This document shows, piece after piece, positions 31,455-40,580 of a DNA stretch of 40,580 nt. The position numbers and the translations under genes are program-made. A model generated the notes under the pieces. The model did not search any database and had not been told where the DNA came from. It was given only the letters and a program-made list of their open reading frames with translations. The stretch covers positions 1-40,580 of the forward strand of contig JAJPKD010000238.1 of assembly GCA_021323895.1 (NCBI GenBank), given 5' to 3'. This DNA is from Acidobacteriota bacterium. Its GTDB lineage: Bacteria; Acidobacteriota; Blastocatellia; Pyrinomonadales; Pyrinomonadaceae. Positions within the stretch are counted from its first letter, which is position 1, and the number at the start of each line of letters is the position of its first letter.

Positions 31455-34382
31455 ATGACCCAGGAAGCTATCGAAGTACGGGGCGCTCGCGTCAACAACC
31501 TCAAGAACATCTCGTTTTCGATTCCCATCAATCAACTGACCGTCGTGACCGGCGTAAGCGGGTCGGGCAAGTCTTCTCTTGCTTTCGACACGATTTACGC
31601 AGAAGGCCAGCGGCGATACGTCGAATCGTTGTCGGCCTATGCTCGGCAATTCCTCGAGCGCATGGACAAGCCGGATGTTGATGAAGTACGCGGCATTGCT
31701 CCGGCGATCGCAATTCGACAGAAGAATTCAACACGCAATCCGCGTTCGACGGTGGCCACGCAAACGGAAATCTTCGATTACCTGCGTCTGCTGTACGCGC
31801 GGATTGGCACGACGATTTGTCGTGTCTGCGGCCGTGAGGTCCATCGCGATTCGCCGGAATCGGCAGCGGACGAGATTCTGAGTCAGTTGTCTGAAGGTAC
31901 GCGCTTCTATGTCGTGTTTCCGGCGAGCGCGGGCTTGACTGTCGAGACTAATGGGAACGCCGACGTGAAGACCAGGAGAAACGGAGACGGGGAGAAAGCG
32001 AGAAACGGCAACTCTCCCCGTCGCCGCGTCTCCGCGTCTGCCCGTCACGTAATCACCGCACACCTCATGAGCCTGATGCAGCGTGGCTTCACGCGCCTCC
32101 TGTTCAATGGCGAGCAGATCGATCTGACATCACCCGATGACTATAGGCGCGAAGACTTTGAAAATGTTTATGTGCTCGTTGATCGTCTGGTCGCGCGCGC
32201 GGATGTGCGGCAGCGACTGGTTGACTCGCTGGAAACGTGTTTTCGCGAGGGTCATGGCCAAGCAGAGATTGAAGTCGTAGGTACGCACTCGTCCGGCGTG
32301 CAAACGGAGCAGGCCAGCGGCCTGCGTAACCATCTGCGTTTCTCGGAACGCTTCGAATGCAAGTACGACGGCACCGTGTACGCCACGCCTGAGCCGCGCC
32401 TCTTCAGCTTCAATAACCCATTCGGCGCGTGTCCGACTTGTCAGGGATTCGGCAACACGATTGGACTCGATCTCGATCTGGTGATTCCCAATCCGGGATT
32501 GAGCCTAAGCGAGGGCGCGATCGAGCCTTTCACCAAGCCGCAGTATGAATGGGCGCAGGCAGAGCTGAAACGATTCGCGAAGTCGGAGCGCATTCCGATG
32601 AACGTGCCGTTCAATCAACTAACAAAGCCGCAACAGCGGGCGATCGTTAACGGCAAGGGCGATTGGAGTGGCGTGCGCGGTTTCTTCGATTTTCTCGAGA
32701 CAAAAAAATACAAGCTGCACGTGCGCGTGTTTCTGTCGAAGTATCGCGGCTACACGCTCTGCCCCGATTGCGAGGGCGGGCGCCTGCGCCAGGAAGCGCG
32801 AGACGTGCGCGTCGGCGGAAAGACTTTGCCGGAAGTTTCCGCGCTATCGATCAAAGATGCCGCCGTCTTTTTTGATGCGCTGGAATTGCTGCCGGAGCAA
32901 TCAGCGATTGCGGATCGCGTGCTGTTCGAAGTGCGTCGTCGCTTGAGATTCATGGTCGAGGTTGGTTTGGACTATCTGACGCTCGACCGTCTGGCTTCTA
33001 CTCTGTCTGGCGGCGAAGCACAACGAATTAAGTTGGCCACGAATCTTGGTTCATCGCTCGTCGGCGCGCTTTACGTGCTTGACGAGCCCTCGATCGGCCT
33101 GCATCCGCGCGACAACGATCGTTTGATTCGTTTGCTCCAGAACTTGCGCGACATCGGCAATACGGTGCTGGTAGTCGAGCACGACGAAGACATGATTCGC
33201 TCGGCGGATCATATTCTCGACATCGGGCCCGCGGCGGGTGAACTCGGCGGACGCTTAATTTACGAAGGGGATTTTCGCGGTCTGCTTCACGATTCTCTAT
33301 CGCTGACGGGGAAATATCTTCGCGGTGAAGTTGAGATTAAGGAGCCGAAGCATCGGCGGGCGCTGCAACTGAAACGTTTGAAAATTCGCGGCGCCAGCGA
33401 GCACAACCTCAAGAGCATCGATGTCGATATCCCACTGGACATGCTCGTGTGTGTGACCGGCGTGAGTGGTTCCGGCAAGTCCACACTGATTCACGACTGT
33501 ATCTACGCGGGTTTGAAAAAAGAGAAGGGCGAGTGGCAAGGACACGTCGGCGCATTTCAGAAGATCGATGGGACGCAACACATCGACGAAGTGATTCTTG
33601 TCGATCAGTCGCCAATCGGCCGCACGCCGCGATCAAATCCCGTCACTTACATCAAAGTTTATGACGCGATTCGCGAGACCTTCGCCAACACGCGCGAAGC
33701 TCAGGCGCACGGCTTCGACCCTTCGCATTTTTCGTTCAATGTTCTCGGTGGTCGTTGCGAGGTCTGTCAGGGCGACGGCACCGTTACGGTCGAGATGCAG
33801 TTCCTCGCGGACGTCGAACTGATCTGCGAAGAATGCAAAGGCACGCGCTTCAAGCAGCAGATTCTCGACGTTCGTTATCGCGGTAAGAACATTCATGACG
33901 TGCTGAACATGACCGTGCGCGAAGCGATGACCTTCTTTCGCGACATAAATAAGATCGCCAATCGCTTGCGCGTGCTGGATGAAGTTGGACTCGGATATCT
34001 GCGCTTGGGCCAATCGGCGACGACTTTGTCCGGGGGAGAAGCCCAGCGCGTGAAACTGGCCGCGCACTTATCGAAACGGGCCGGCGCCAAGACGCTCTAC
34101 ATCTTCGACGAACCTACGACCGGCCTTCACTTTGACGACATCAACAAACTGCTGGCCGCGTTTCGCGCGCTGATTGACGCAGGCGGATCGCTGCTAGTGA
34201 TCGAGCACAACCTCGATGTGATTAAGACTGCCGATTACATTGTTGATTTAGGACCCGAAGGCGGAGATGCGGGTGGATATGTTGTAGCTACCGGAACGCC
34301 GGAAGAGATCATGAAAGTAAAATCATCTCACACGGGCAAATATCTGAAAGAACACCTTACCCACCTTAATGGCCGCGGGTGA
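31455..34382 (+). CDS. uvrA: Excinuclease ABC subunit A
   Basis: DNA-damage-recognition ATPase of nucleotide excision repair. Both ABC modules are present: Walker A VVTGVSGSGKSSLAFDT and CVTGVSGSGKSTLIHD; signatures TLSGGEAQRIKLATNLG and TLSGGEAQRVKLAAHLS; Walker B YVLDEPSIGLHPRD and YIFDEPTTGLHFDD. Zinc-module cysteines appear in CPTCQGFG, CPDCEGG, CEVCQGDG and CEECKGT. It has 975 residues, about 30 more than usual. The extra length falls at about residues 170-198, a basic low-complexity stretch encoded by an inverted repeat of octamers (31962-32046). The position is just after the EGTRFYVVFPAS strand, where other UvrA proteins have a short variable loop, so function is probably kept. Confidence 0.98.
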   Translation: MTQEAIEVRGARVNNLKNISFSIPINQLTVVTGVSGSGKSSLAFDTIYAEGQRRYVESLSAYARQFLERMDKPDVDEVRGIAPAIAIRQKNSTRNPRSTVATQTEIFDYLRLLYARIGTTICRVCGREVHRDSPESAADEILSQLSEGTRFYVVFPASAGLTVETNGNADVKTRRNGDGEKARNGNSPRRRVSASARHVITAHLMSLMQRGFTRLLFNGEQIDLTSPDDYRREDFENVYVLVDRLVARADVRQRLVDSLETCFREGHGQAEIEVVGTHSSGVQTEQASGLRNHLRFSERFECKYDGTVYATPEPRLFSFNNPFGACPTCQGFGNTIGLDLDLVIPNPGLSLSEGAIEPFTKPQYEWAQAELKRFAKSERIPMNVPFNQLTKPQQRAIVNGKGDWSGVRGFFDFLETKKYKLHVRVFLSKYRGYTLCPDCEGGRLRQEARDVRVGGKTLPEVSALSIKDAAVFFDALELLPEQSAIADRVLFEVRRRLRFMVEVGLDYLTLDRLASTLSGGEAQRIKLATNLGSSLVGALYVLDEPSIGLHPRDNDRLIRLLQNLRDIGNTVLVVEHDEDMIRSADHILDIGPAAGELGGRLIYEGDFRGLLHDSLSLTGKYLRGEVEIKEPKHRRALQLKRLKIRGASEHNLKSIDVDIPLDMLVCVTGVSGSGKSTLIHDCIYAGLKKEKGEWQGHVGAFQKIDGTQHIDEVILVDQSPIGRTPRSNPVTYIKVYDAIRETFANTREAQAHGFDPSHFSFNVLGGRCEVCQGDGTVTVEMQFLADVELICEECKGTRFKQQILDVRYRGKNIHDVLNMTVREAMTFFRDINKIANRLRVLDEVGLGYLRLGQSATTLSGGEAQRVKLAAHLSKRAGAKTLYIFDEPTTGLHFDDINKLLAAFRALIDAGGSLLVIEHNLDVIKTADYIVDLGPEGGDAGGYVVATGTPEEIMKVKSSHTGKYLKEHLTHLNGRG
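31962..32046. repeat. Inverted repeat of octamers inside uvrA
   Basis: Arms 31962-31995 and 32013-32046 match at 27 of 34 positions. The right arm is four octamers close to GACGCGGA (complement); the left arm is a decayed version. A 17-base spacer lies between. It is read through in frame and codes for a Lys/Arg/Asn/Ser-rich insert. Confidence 0.85.
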
Positions 34383-35074: not shown

Positions 35075-36937
35075 TTACCGCACGTCTTTTGCGCAACGAA
35101 AGCCCGTCTTGCTGTAATCGTAATTGCCGCGTGCGGGATAGCCACGACGGTACGTCGTGGTGGCAGTATTTCGATCGCTGTCATAAGCGCCTCCGCGAAT
35201 GACACGCAGGTCGCTGGTTGGTTTAATCGGCAGTTGCCCGCCGGGATACGTGTTTAGTGGGCTGGAGGTCCACTCCCATACGTTTCCTGCCATGTCATAA
35301 GCGCCATAGGGTGATTTACCCACGAATGCGCGCACGTTTGCTACGCCGCGGACGCCATTGGCATTAGCCAGACCAGTTTTCCATTCATTTCCCCATGGGT
35401 ACCGCCGTTCATCAGTGCCGCGCGCCGCAAACTCCCATTCCTCTTCTGTCGGCAGACGTTTGCTCGCCCACTTGGCAAAAGCATTCGCATCGTCCCACGT
35501 AATGCCAGTGGCGGGCGCTAGATCTTCGACGCAATGTCCCAGCGTCCAACTCGTTGGCGCAGCGCGACCGGTGGCCCTCAGGAACTGCGTATAACTCCCG
35601 CAAGTAACTTCAGTCTCGTCGATGAAGAATGAGCCAATCGAAACTTTGTGCGCAGGTCGTTCATAGTCGTCTCCATCGTCGCGGCCCATCATGAATTCTC
35701 CGCCGGGAACATAGACCATTCCTGACGGGGCCGGCGGCGCCACTGGCTGTGGCTTTTCAGTTATCGATGCGGGATTCGACGTTGTCGTGTTGGTCTGGTT
35801 TCCAGTCTCCCTAGTCGCAAGCAAATAGAATCCTACGCCGGCAATAACAACGATCACGGCGATGATTGCGAATACAACTATCGCGCGATTGGATTTTGGT
35901 GGCGGCGATGAATCGTACGGGGCAATTGTTTCAGCCGCCGGGACCGGATTGGTGGCACTTGGCTCGGGAACCGCTTGCGGAACAAATGGCGCGTGCATCG
36001 TCGGGATGTGCATCGGTTGTGGCGGCTCTTCCGGTGTGGGTTTCTCGTCAGAAGCTTCAGTAGGTTTTGGCTGCGGCACGGGCGGAGAAGGAAGCGGTGC
36101 GGTCTCGGCTTCTCTCGCTTGCTCTAATCCCGTTCGCAAAGCGTTTCTCATTTCGCTTGCCGAGGCAAACCGATCCCGCTTGCGGATGGACATCGACTTG
36201 GAAACTATCTTAGAAAGCCACTCAGGCACTTGAGGGTTAAGGGTGTGCGCGAAGGACAGCGGATCGCGTCCCGTTTCTTCCAAAGCTTCAGCTCGCTGCG
36301 AAGCGGTAATCGGAACTTGACTTGTCAGCAAGTGATAGAGCGTCGCGCCGAGCGAATACACGTCACTCTGTGGAGTCGTGCCAGAATTATTCAACTGCTC
36401 GAGGGGTGCATAAGGCGCGGTGTACGCGTGAACGCTCGAGGCCTCCTGACCGGGCGCGCCGCGGGCCAAACCGAAATCGAGCAGATAAATCTCGCCCTCG
36501 CTCGTTACTTTGATGTTCGCGGGTTTGATGTCGCGATGAACGATCGGCTCGGGTTTTTGATCGTGCAAATAAGTCAGAGCGCCGAGTAACTGATCGGCCC
36601 ACGACATTACTTCGGCATAATCGAATGGCCGCCCGCGCAGCTCAAGTCTCTGCGCGAGGTTCAAACCTTCGATGAATTCCATGACCAGGAATTGGCCGTC
36701 GCCGTGAGAGAAATGGTGAGTTACTCGCGGCAGCGTGGGATGTTTCAGATTGGCGAGTGTTCTGGCCTCGTGGCGGAAAGCGCTGCGTAGCTTGTCAGAA
36801 GTCGTCAGCGTTTCTTTAATGGCGACAATCGAATCGATCGTGTCATCGATGGCTTCATAAACCTGCCCCATGCCACCCTTACCGAGCGGTCTGACGATGC
36901 GATAACGGTTTTCGAGAATCGTGTTGCGCGACAGCAT
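35075..36937 (-). CDS. Membrane Ser/Thr protein kinase fused to an FGE/sulfatase-modifying-like domain
   Basis: 620 residues. A PknB-type kinase (about 10-270) has LGKGGMGQVYEAI, Lys41 in IVAIKE, HRDIKPAN (His134, Asp136) and DFG at 154-156, so it looks active. A Pro/Glu-rich linker (280-350) and one membrane span (AIVVFAIIAVIVVIAGVGFYLL, 352-373 in two parts) follow. A periplasmic formylglycine-enzyme-like domain comes next (406-620; MVYVPGGEFMMG, LPTEEEWEFAARG, DMAGNVWEWTSS, VIRGGAYDSD, KTGFRCAKD). The paired cysteines that true FGE has shortly before the final GFR are missing, so this is probably a binding domain or sensor. ATG 36937 is preferred; 20 more codons upstream are open but unlike the family. 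Confidence 0.92.
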   Translation of the reverse strand: MLSRNTILENRYRIVRPLGKGGMGQVYEAIDDTIDSIVAIKETLTTSDKLRSAFRHEARTLANLKHPTLPRVTHHFSHGDGQFLVMEFIEGLNLAQRLELRGRPFDYAEVMSWADQLLGALTYLHDQKPEPIVHRDIKPANIKVTSEGEIYLLDFGLARGAPGQEASSVHAYTAPYAPLEQLNNSGTTPQSDVYSLGATLYHLLTSQVPITASQRAEALEETGRDPLSFAHTLNPQVPEWLSKIVSKSMSIRKRDRFASASEMRNALRTGLEQAREAETAPLPSPPVPQPKPTEASDEKPTPEEPPQPMHIPTMHAPFVPQAVPEPSATNPVPAAETIAPYDSSPPPKSNRAIVVFAIIAVIVVIAGVGFYLLATRETGNQTNTTTSNPASITEKPQPVAPPAPSGMVYVPGGEFMMGRDDGDDYERPAHKVSIGSFFIDETEVTCGSYTQFLRATGRAAPTSWTLGHCVEDLAPATGITWDDANAFAKWASKRLPTEEEWEFAARGTDERRYPWGNEWKTGLANANGVRGVANVRAFVGKSPYGAYDMAGNVWEWTSSPLNTYPGGQLPIKPTSDLRVIRGGAYDSDRNTATTTYRRGYPARGNYDYSKTGFRCAKDVR

Positions 36938-37036
36938 CAAGGAAACTTTGCGCCCGCGGAAAACCTGGCCGGCCGAAACGACGCTTTGCGCGCGCATCTT
37001 AGCGAAGTTTGGCGCAACCCGCTAGATGTTTCGGTA

Positions 37037-37979: not shown

Positions 37980-39110
37980 CTACCGATCGCGCGCGACCGC
38001 AACTACTCGGAAACCGATATTCTCACCGTGATACGATGCGCTGCCATACATGCGATTGGTTGAGCGAACCTGATCCGCGCCGTCGTACCAGGAGCCGCCG
38101 CGAATAGTACGCATGTGCTCGATGCCGCCAGTTAACCAGACGCTACCGTCCGTGGGCGCGCCGTTGTAATTCTCGTGGTACCAATCAAGACACCATTCCC
38201 AGACGTTGCCTCGCATGTCATAAAGACCAAAGGCATTCGGCCTCAAACGTCCAACCGGATGCGTCTTTCCGTCTGAGTTCTTCCTATACCATGCCAGCAA
38301 ATCCAGCTTCGCTATTTCATCGTCACTGGTTCCCGCACGGCACGCATATTCCCATTCCGCCTCTGTGGGCAATCGATACCGGTACGCGTCATTGGCGTCA
38401 TTGAGCTTGTCCAAAAACTGCTGAGCGTCCTCCCATGAAACCAGCTCCACCGGACAATTTGCGCAATCCCTATGCTGGCTGGGCGTGGTCCCCATCACTT
38501 GGCGCCATTGAGCTTGCGTGACTTCGTACTTTCCCATGTAGAAACCGTATTCGCCGGTTGTGGTTCGCAATGAATCCAATTTGATCTTGGCCAGGTTGTA
38601 TCGAGTTTGAGCTCCGTCAAACTCTGCCCGTGACGCAACTCCCTGTTCCAATAGGGCCATTTCGCGTTTCAGATCGACTCGAGCATTCGCAAGTTGGGTT
38701 TCAGCGTTAGGAGTCTCCATTCTCGCTCTGGCTGCGTCTTGTTCGTTGACCACAAACGCAACCTGATGGACCGGTTTCTCACCGCCATTCTCAGATCCCA
38801 TCATGAAACTACCGGGCGGAACCCAGACGAACTCCATGCCTATTCGATTGGTGATGGTCTCGTGCTGAGGGTCGGTCGCAGGGGTATTTCCCCTTCCGGT
38901 TCGCCTTCGGTTGGCTGGGGTTGACGTGCGTTTTGGCGTGGCCGTTTTCTTCGGCGTTGGTTTTGCGACGACTTCGCCGCCCTTGCCTTGCGGCGCCGCA
39001 CTAAAGACGCTGCCGAGGGAAATGGAAAGCGAAAGCAGCGCGAGGACGGCGAACCCGAATGCTCCAATCAAAAGAGTTCGGCTTCGTCCATTTGCAAATC
39101 GTATACGCAT
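37980..39110 (-). CDS. Membrane-anchored FGE-like domain interrupted by an adaptor-protein coiled-coil hairpin
   Basis: 376 residues from ATG 39108-39110. N-terminal membrane span (TLLIGAFGFAVLALLSLSIS), QGKGGE, then a Lys/Pro/Thr linker (48-80). The FGE-like domain starts at about 88 (NRIGMEFVWVPPGSFMMGSE) and breaks at PVHQVAF. About 65 residues follow that are typical of RND/HlyD adaptor hairpins (ETQLANARVDLKREMALLEQ and SRAEFDGAQTRYNLAKIKLD, roughly 137-180). Then the domain resumes exactly where expected at YGFYMGKYEVTQAQW and runs to ENIGFRVVAVARDR. There are no FGE active-site cysteines before the final GFR. It starts 11 bases after the adaptor gene and is surely co-transcribed with it. 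Confidence 0.88.
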   Translation of the reverse strand: MRIRFANGRSRTLLIGAFGFAVLALLSLSISLGSVFSAAPQGKGGEVVAKPTPKKTATPKRTSTPANRRRTGRGNTPATDPQHETITNRIGMEFVWVPPGSFMMGSENGGEKPVHQVAFVVNEQDAARARMETPNAETQLANARVDLKREMALLEQGVASRAEFDGAQTRYNLAKIKLDSLRTTTGEYGFYMGKYEVTQAQWRQVMGTTPSQHRDCANCPVELVSWEDAQQFLDKLNDANDAYRYRLPTEAEWEYACRAGTSDDEIAKLDLLAWYRKNSDGKTHPVGRLRPNAFGLYDMRGNVWEWCLDWYHENYNGAPTDGSVWLTGGIEHMRTIRGGSWYDGADQVRSTNRMYGSASYHGENIGFRVVAVARDR

Positions 39111-39121
39111 TACTTGTGTGG

Positions 39122-40318
39122 CTAGTTTCCCACGATCACTGCCTGACCTGATCGCAAATCCTTCGGATCGACGATCACGGTTTGACCCGGCTTCACGCCC
39201 GAACGTATTTCGATCCAATCAGGGCCGGCAACGCCGGTAGTAACCGTCCGCTCGATCGCTTTGCCATTCTCCACGATCAGCACTTTCGCGTTTCGCGCTG
39301 ATCTTACTACTGCATCTTTTGGCACGCTGACCACCGTCGTAGGCTCCATGTCGATCTCGACGCGCGGCTTGTCGCCTGCTTGAAAGGCTTTGGTCTTTGG
39401 CAAGTAGAGATCGATCGAAATTATGCGTTTCGAATTGCCCGGTGCGGTAGTGACTCTATCAACACGGGCGACGTAGCTGGCCTGCTCATCGCTGACGCGC
39501 GCTGCCTGTCCAACCCGAATCGAAAGATTCTTAACTTGAACGTCGCGCGCCACGAAGGTCGAAGTGTCAACTCGCACATGAAGTTCGCCCATCGCGGCGA
39601 TCTCCATCAGCCGAGAATCAACGGTGACCGTTTGGCCCTCGCTCGCGCTGATGCCGCGGACGACTCCATCGGCCGGCGAGGTAACCAAACAGTCAGCGAG
39701 TCGCGCGACGGCGGCATCATGTTCAGCTTGCCTTTGTCTGACGAGATACGCGGCTTCTGGGCGTTTGCTGCTCCCAGCCGGCAAGGCATCGAGATCCCTG
39801 CGAGCTTGCTCAAGCGCGCTCTCTGTCAGTTGCTCGTTGGCGCGATACACGCTGTTGTCGATTTCCGCCAGGGCATCGCCACGCTTAACGGTAGCGCCTT
39901 CCTTCACGGAAATCTTATTGAGCCTTCCCGAGACTTGGGGGCTGACGGTGACCATCTCAGGAATCATCACCACGCCGACCGCTGAAAGTGTCTCGGCAAA
40001 AGTTTGCTCGGTCACCTTCGCAATTCTGACTGGAACCGGGCCCGAAATGCGCGTTGGTTTTGACGAAACATGTGTTGGCTTGCCGGGCGTCGGCGAAGCG
40101 GACGGTTTTGGTTTGATCTCGCCACCGGGTCCCTGGCCGGCATTCGCAAGCACGTTCAGCGTCGAGACCCCCAAAACCAATATGAACAACGCGACTAGGA
40201 TCGCCGGCGACCTGCGCGCACGTTGGTCGATCGCTTCATAGACGGTGCCCATGCCTCCGTGCCCGAGTTCGCGCAGGACGCGATAGCGATCTTGCAGGAT
40301 GGTATTGGGGGATAGCAT
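39122..40318 (-). CDS. RND/HlyD-type membrane-fusion protein with a Ser/Thr-kinase N-terminal fragment
   Basis: 398 residues. Residues 1-31 match the start of a PknB-type kinase (NTILQDRYRVLRELGHGG, then MGTVYEAID) and stop before the catalytic Lys. A membrane span follows (SPAILVALFILVLGVSTL), then QGPGGE and a Pro/Ser/Thr linker, then a periplasmic adaptor. The adaptor has the lipoyl half-motif VSPQVSGRLNKISVKEGATV, a short hairpin (160-208), the second half SPADGVVRGISASEGQTV, a beta-barrel and the C-terminal membrane-proximal domain (VPKDAVVRSARNAKVLIVEN). Adaptors of this class normally pair with an RND or MacB pump; none is encoded next to it. The FGE-like chimera follows. Confidence 0.9.
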   Translation of the reverse strand: MLSPNTILQDRYRVLRELGHGGMGTVYEAIDQRARRSPAILVALFILVLGVSTLNVLANAGQGPGGEIKPKPSASPTPGKPTHVSSKPTRISGPVPVRIAKVTEQTFAETLSAVGVVMIPEMVTVSPQVSGRLNKISVKEGATVKRGDALAEIDNSVYRANEQLTESALEQARRDLDALPAGSSKRPEAAYLVRQRQAEHDAAVARLADCLVTSPADGVVRGISASEGQTVTVDSRLMEIAAMGELHVRVDTSTFVARDVQVKNLSIRVGQAARVSDEQASYVARVDRVTTAPGNSKRIISIDLYLPKTKAFQAGDKPRVEIDMEPTTVVSVPKDAVVRSARNAKVLIVENGKAIERTVTTGVAGPDWIEIRSGVKPGQTVIVDPKDLRSGQAVIVGN

Positions 40319-40336: not shown

Positions 40337-40580
40337 TCAATCGCCATCGAGCAAATAGATCGTCTTCAGATAGGGACATCCAGCGCGGATGCTGTACGTG
40401 ATCCTCTTCAAATAGAGATTGTTGTGCAGAATGCCGCCGTCGAAATCGAAAGTGCAAACGCCCTTCGCACATTTTTTAAAAGGTTTGACTGAGCGCGCGG
40501 GCAGCTCTTCATGTTCGCGACGCGTGAGCCACGCATCGGCCTGCGCGAGCGAAGCGAAGCGGCGCACGACAAACCGATCA
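40337..40580 (-). CDS. Unknown protein, 5' end cut by window
   Basis: The frame is open from the right window edge (reading DRFVVRRFASLAQADAWLTR) to a stop at 40337, at least 81 codons. An internal GTG at 40567 could be mistaken for a start, but the open frame and the phrase VVRRFASLAQADAW suggest the gene begins outside. It contains two short Cys-bearing stretches, KKCAKGVCTFDFDG and RAGCPYLKTIYLL. Not recognised. It lies 18 bases upstream of the kinase-fragment/adaptor gene on the same strand, so it may belong to that transcript. Confidence 0.6.
   Translation of the reverse strand, partial: DRFVVRRFASLAQADAWLTRREHEELPARSVKPFKKCAKGVCTFDFDGGILHNNLYLKRITYSIRAGCPYLKTIYLLDGD

Follow-up and report, generated by a model that had tools for sequence, protein, structure and literature searches.

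Near one end of the window (the whole stretch of DNA analysed, 40,580 nucleotides), two adjoining genes on the reverse strand encode a protein with a formylglycine-generating enzyme (FGE)-like domain and a chimeric periplasmic adaptor. We named these proteins P1 and P2. P2 lies directly upstream of P1, with 8 bases between its stop codon and the GTG codon at 39113, which is the start of P1 unless translation begins at the ATG at 39110. The N-terminus of P1 consists of a membrane anchor or signal segment and a Pro/Thr-rich linker, and P1 is probably a membrane-anchored, periplasmic protein. Its features are given here together with a kinase-FGE fusion gene of the window, used as an internal comparison.

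37980-39113, reverse strand: P1, FGE-like protein (PF03781, 146.7 bits against a cut-off of 23.3)
38751-38858, reverse strand: FGE-like domain before the insert, P1 residues 86-121 (profile match and alignment)
38553-38750, reverse strand: insert, P1 residues 122-187, candidate adaptor hairpin tip of two predicted helices (from the split of the FGE profile)
38631-38666, reverse strand: RLS motif REMALLEQGVAS (R150, L154, S161) at the predicted hairpin turn (sequence compared with RxxxLxxxxxxS)
37983-38552, reverse strand: FGE-like domain after the insert, P1 residues 188-377 (PF03781 match at 189-371; relatives' profile at 104-293)
35075-36997, reverse strand: kinase-FGE fusion with an uninterrupted FGE domain (PF00069 and PF03781; KVSIGSFFIDETEVT without an insert)

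An in-frame insertion in the FGE-like domain

The open reading frame of P1 at 37980-39113 (reverse strand) reads ...GGEKPVHQVAF, then VVNEQDAARARMETPNAETQLANARVDLKREMALLEQGVASRAEFDGAQTRYNLAKIKLDSLRTTTGE, then YGFYMGKYEVTQ. The initial annotation had described an FGE-like domain that is normal up to PVHQVAF and resumes at YGFYMGKYEVTQ, with the insert at 38550-38760, and these borders proved right within a few bases. A profile built from relatives' FGE domains matches P1 at residues 29-121 (profile positions 22-104) and again at residues 188-376 (positions 104-293). Both matches meet at position 104, indicating that about 66 residues (122-187) separate consecutive positions of the domain and that no FGE residue was lost. 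Among 162 aligned FGE domains from relatives and viral contigs, P1 alone is split at this site. Ten relatives' genes have 1-2 residues there when aligned with P1, as do the members of a 34-sequence alignment that includes the window's kinase-fused copy, which continues directly through the site as had been stated. The insertion is thus confirmed as a clean, in-frame and real feature of the sequence.

We searched with the insert and its FGE flanks at three levels, in 119 genomes from the family, 162 from the class and 396 from the phylum, and none of them yielded another insert-bearing FGE protein. The family and class matches listed for this query are frames of about 460-550 residues, and those examined are adaptors. 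Likewise, neither insert-bearing FGE proteins nor adaptor relatives were found in the viral-contig searches. The insertion is known from one uncultured Acidobacteriota assembled genome and shows no conservation. We also considered whether it belongs to a known variant of the FGE family, an explanation that had been named in advance as a possible refutation. This was rejected, since no collected FGE domain has an insert at this site and P1 aligns with solved FGE-fold structures both before and after it.

The AlphaFold2 model of P1 alone, calculated from an alignment of FGE domains only (model residue m is P1 residue m+1), leaves the FGE/TvpA-like fold intact and adds a helical hairpin to it. 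The insert is predicted to form two main helices, 136-155 and 161-185, with a pLDDT of about 70-80 and a short turn between them. This hairpin sits between the strands 115-119 and 190-193, and most of the FGE core has a pLDDT above 90. On both sides of the insert, the model aligns to TvpA (Treponema denticola variable protein 1, 2y3c; Z 32.1 over 221 residues) and PvdO (5hha; Z 31.1 over 222 residues). With Z scores of 25-32 against TvpA, PvdO and human FGE, P1 has the FGE-sulfatase family fold. TvpA and PvdO thus have the FGE/C-type-lectin-like fold in common with P1, but neither carries an insert at the corresponding site. PorK/GldK of the type IX secretion system resembles P1 in being an envelope protein with an FGE-like fold. 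However, PorK/GldK lacks an adaptor hairpin, and P1 scores far under the GldK cut-off (80 vs 350 bits).

The catalytic cysteine pair of formylglycine-generating enzyme is absent from P1; in human FGE, these residues are Cys336 and Cys341 and lie in the GGSW block. No cysteine follows residue 307 of P1, and its GGSW block reads RGGSWYDGADQVRSTNRMYG. P1 is therefore unlikely to be a formylglycine-generating enzyme, and by analogy of fold it may have a binding role as in TvpA. The C-terminus of P1 (RGGSWYDGADQVRSTNRMYGSASYHGENIGFRVV, 37983-38100, reverse strand) is similar to the region that varies in DGR proteins of the TvpA type. No near-identical DGR template repeat was found when its DNA was compared with the incomplete assembly, which gave only a 76% match to 74 bases.

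Identity of the insert

The insert had been described as about 65 residues with the helical pattern of RND/HlyD adaptors, and profile comparisons agree with this. The NCBIfam model RND_mfp (TIGR01730) matches it at positions 67-122 with an E-value of 7.1e-7. With profiles of our own, the insert scores 53.7 bits (31 adaptors of relatives) and 25.3 bits (20 P2-like adaptors), and its best local score is 125 (maximum 64 among 200 shuffles). Its top matches among solved structures are RND adaptors, at weak E-values (6vej, 0.003; MexJ 20yy, 0.013). These profile matches, whose absence had been the second possible refutation, indicate that the insert is adaptor-derived. A chance coiled coil was ruled out by the profile E-values and the shuffles. 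An origin from TolC/OEP was rejected as well, since Pfam OEP matches at an E-value of 0.027 only and the strong matches are adaptors.

Periplasmic adaptors grip outer-membrane channels with their hairpin tips. The predicted turn of the insert carries the sequence RxxxLxxxxxxS, known as the RLS motif, which is the TolC-binding interface of MacA, AcrA and MexA (PMC3391258). By its profile match at the tip position and this motif, the insert would qualify as a periplasmic adaptor hairpin tip. It resembles the tips of MacA/AcrA/YbhG-type adaptors (RND_mfp TIGR01730, HlyD family) in sequence family, in the two-helix hairpin and in the RLS motif at the turn. P1 differs from these adaptors in having the tip alone, inside an FGE-type fold. 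P1 matches TIGR01730 at positions 68-124 of 322 and nowhere else, so the lipoyl and β-barrel domains that surround the hairpin in an adaptor are missing.

The borders of the insert do not look like those of a mobile element. We found no transposon signature there, neither a target-site duplication nor long inverted repeats; the repeats at the borders are words of 7-8 bases only, and transposon-like borders were therefore ruled out. Misjoining of an adaptor gene sequence into the FGE gene during metagenome assembly is a highly improbable source of the chimera. The genome is fragmented (322 contigs, 3% contamination), the insert occurs once and its third-position G+C is lower (0.485 vs 0.61-0.63), as might be expected of such an artefact. 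However, the reading frame is kept at both borders, the insert is read in its native adaptor frame without a stop, the FGE domain is complete, no 12-base word is common to the insert and P2, and the assembly holds no other copy of the insert.

The chimeric adaptor P2 and the donor of the tip

The features of P2 are as follows.

39122-40318, reverse strand: P2, chimeric periplasmic adaptor encoded immediately before P1 (TIGR01730, 140.3 bits against a cut-off of 94.9)
40220-40318, reverse strand: P2 residues 1-33, Ser/Thr kinase start limited to the glycine-rich loop (75-85% identical to relatives' FGE-kinases)
40031-40219, reverse strand: P2 residues 34-96, hydrophobic segment and GQGPGGE..KPxPxPTP linker (like FGE-protein linkers)
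39680-39856, reverse strand: P2 residues 155-213, short hairpin with the tip missing (59 residues between the lipoyl halves)

By its score and its lipoyl and barrel domains (HlyD_D23, Biotin_lipoyl_2 and HlyD_3 in Pfam), P2 is an RND_mfp adaptor. It covers RND_mfp positions 1-80 and 117-320, and positions 81-116 are missing. Its inter-lipoyl segment of 59 residues is the shortest; under one motif rule, the 52 further adaptors measured have 94-192 residues. These are not a random sample, as they had been collected through the family search or for their similarity to P2 or the insert. In the nearest family of P2, this length is mostly 120. RxxxLxxxxxxS was not found in the 59-residue segment of P2. 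The upstream adaptor had been noted to have a rather short hairpin; the case is stronger than that, since P2 lacks the very segment that the insert supplies.

This complementarity is seen in several comparisons. In one search of the genome with RND_mfp, P2 lacks positions 81-116 and the P1 insert supplies 68-124. Against the profile of P2-like adaptors, P2 matches 48-159 and 211-411, leaving a gap at 160-210, and the insert matches 155-197. On the adaptor L041, the hairpin base of P2 corresponds to 95-164, the insert to 159-218 and the return of P2 to 238-277; on the adaptor L294, the base corresponds to 59-139 and the insert to 129-186. At the level of sequence, adaptor body and tip are consecutive with little overlap, yet they lie on two proteins. 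Furthermore, P2 is the sole tipless adaptor measured in the genome and the direct neighbour of P1, which favours P2 as the source of the tip.

On the other hand, the insert resembles MacA-like adaptors more closely (53.7 bits) than it does the adaptor family of P2 (25.3 bits). The tip may therefore have been copied from a different, MacA/YbhG-like adaptor, with P2 having a naturally short hairpin and the adjacency being a coincidence or a sign of a shared functional niche. The insert aligns with L040, a MacA-like adaptor from the same genus, without gaps over all 68 residues, 30 of them identical. The short hairpin of P2 was modelled with high confidence from the single sequence, as expected of a stable, naturally short hairpin; it is the one usable part of a model that is otherwise poor (mean pLDDT 40). 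Adaptors without a hairpin domain are also known, as in BesA (PMC4446572). BesA lacks the domain that is strongly reduced in P2, but P2 differs from it in keeping a short hairpin and in having the FGE-type linker and the kinase start. We regard this history as a possible but rather unlikely one. It leaves unexplained why the sole tipless adaptor measured is the direct neighbour of P1, and why the insert matches the continuation, in L294 and L041, of the hairpin base kept by P2. The genome's own MacA-like adaptor, which is the best protein match to the insert in the genome, is just 41% identical, excluding a recent copy from that adaptor. No second DNA copy of the insert exists in the assembly either, and a recent copy from the same genome was ruled out. 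The donor of the tip may be P2 or a MacA-like adaptor. Thus, the earlier proposal that a piece of an adaptor has moved into the ligand domain of its partner holds for the in-frame transfer and the adaptor origin, and less well for P2 as the source. Those MacA-like adaptor genes that resemble the insert most, here and in a relative's genome, adjoin a Ser/Thr kinase gene in divergent orientation (L097, 87-1739 and 2674-4185; L098, 1708-3360 and 4289-5761).

P2 also bears traces of the kinase-FGE fusions of the same bacterial family (for example, L081 6606-8507 and the window's gene at 35075-36997). The two ends of these fusions match P2 residues 1-33 and the FGE domain of P1. However, no kinase body stands behind the kinase start of P2, which is fused to the hydrophobic segment and to a linker whose likeness to the P1 and L087 linkers was judged by eye. 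An adaptor is in place of the kinase body, and the FGE domain carries the insert. At the corresponding loci of relatives, kinase-FGE fusions occur along with single FGE genes, and no P2-like adaptor was found there in the stretches examined. It looks as if the kinase body of a kinase-FGE gene was replaced by an adaptor body and an adaptor tip went into an FGE domain. Both changes could have come from one complex rearrangement, for example by template switching.

The contig ends 262 bases upstream of P2, and a partner transporter gene may therefore lie beyond the window. An open frame of at least 80 residues (40337-40579, reverse strand) lies upstream of P2 and runs off the contig end without a Pfam match. 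A UvrA-like protein of 975 residues (31455-34382, forward strand) is encoded near the locus, and we saw no link between it and the insertion.

Possible history and role of the hairpin

Our leading explanation, which we put forward tentatively, is that a local rearrangement placed an adaptor hairpin tip into the neighbouring membrane-anchored FGE/TvpA-type protein P1, that P2 lacks this tip, and that the hairpin of P1 may serve in docking. The simplest history would be a rearrangement within a run of kinase, FGE and adaptor genes, which would also have left P2 with the kinase start and the FGE-type linker. The tip segment of P2, or of a close relative of P2, would then have ended up in P1. Counting against a local transfer from P2 are the closeness of the insert to MacA-like adaptors, the confidently modelled short hairpin of P2 and the occurrence in one genome. 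The locus nevertheless suggests that a protein module moved between adjacent genes.

The two proteins would be co-expressed, both anchored in the inner membrane and facing the periplasm. The exposed hairpin of P1 would project for a tip-to-tip contact with a TolC-type channel or with the hairpin stump of P2, and the presumed ligand-binding domain of P1 would thereby be held at an export channel. The RLS motif and the predicted hairpin are the basis on which P1 may dock to a channel or an adaptor. Very doubtfully, the two proteins might even form a split adaptor, in which P2 provides the anchor, the lipoyl/barrel body and the stump, and P1 provides the docking tip in trans on a ligand-binding FGE-type domain.

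The insertion could also be real but without function, having arisen lately by accident in a gene family that is repeated and dispensable, with the hairpin being tolerated because it is placed in a surface loop. No such insertion was found in six further members of the genus, these genomes hold many FGE-like genes, and the kinase start of P2 is a second chimeric piece, of no use to the protein. Nevertheless, decay would be expected of a functionless segment, whereas the insert, far as it is from candidate donors in the genome (41%), keeps the adaptor consensus, the RLS motif and the helix pattern. We therefore consider such an accident unlikely. Even then, the locus would clearly show part of a domain passing between neighbouring genes that are unrelated.

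A narrow search of the open-access literature found neither such a chimera nor FGE-kinases in Acidobacteria. If the hairpin of P1 is real and functional, the adaptor hairpin tip would act as a transferable docking unit that an unrelated periplasmic fold can take up, and adaptors could persist without it. With the tip on P1 and the body on P2, the pair could then serve as a natural test of tip-to-tip tripartite assembly. If the two proteins do form a split adaptor, recruitment of the outer-membrane channel would depend on P1 and could be controlled by a ligand.
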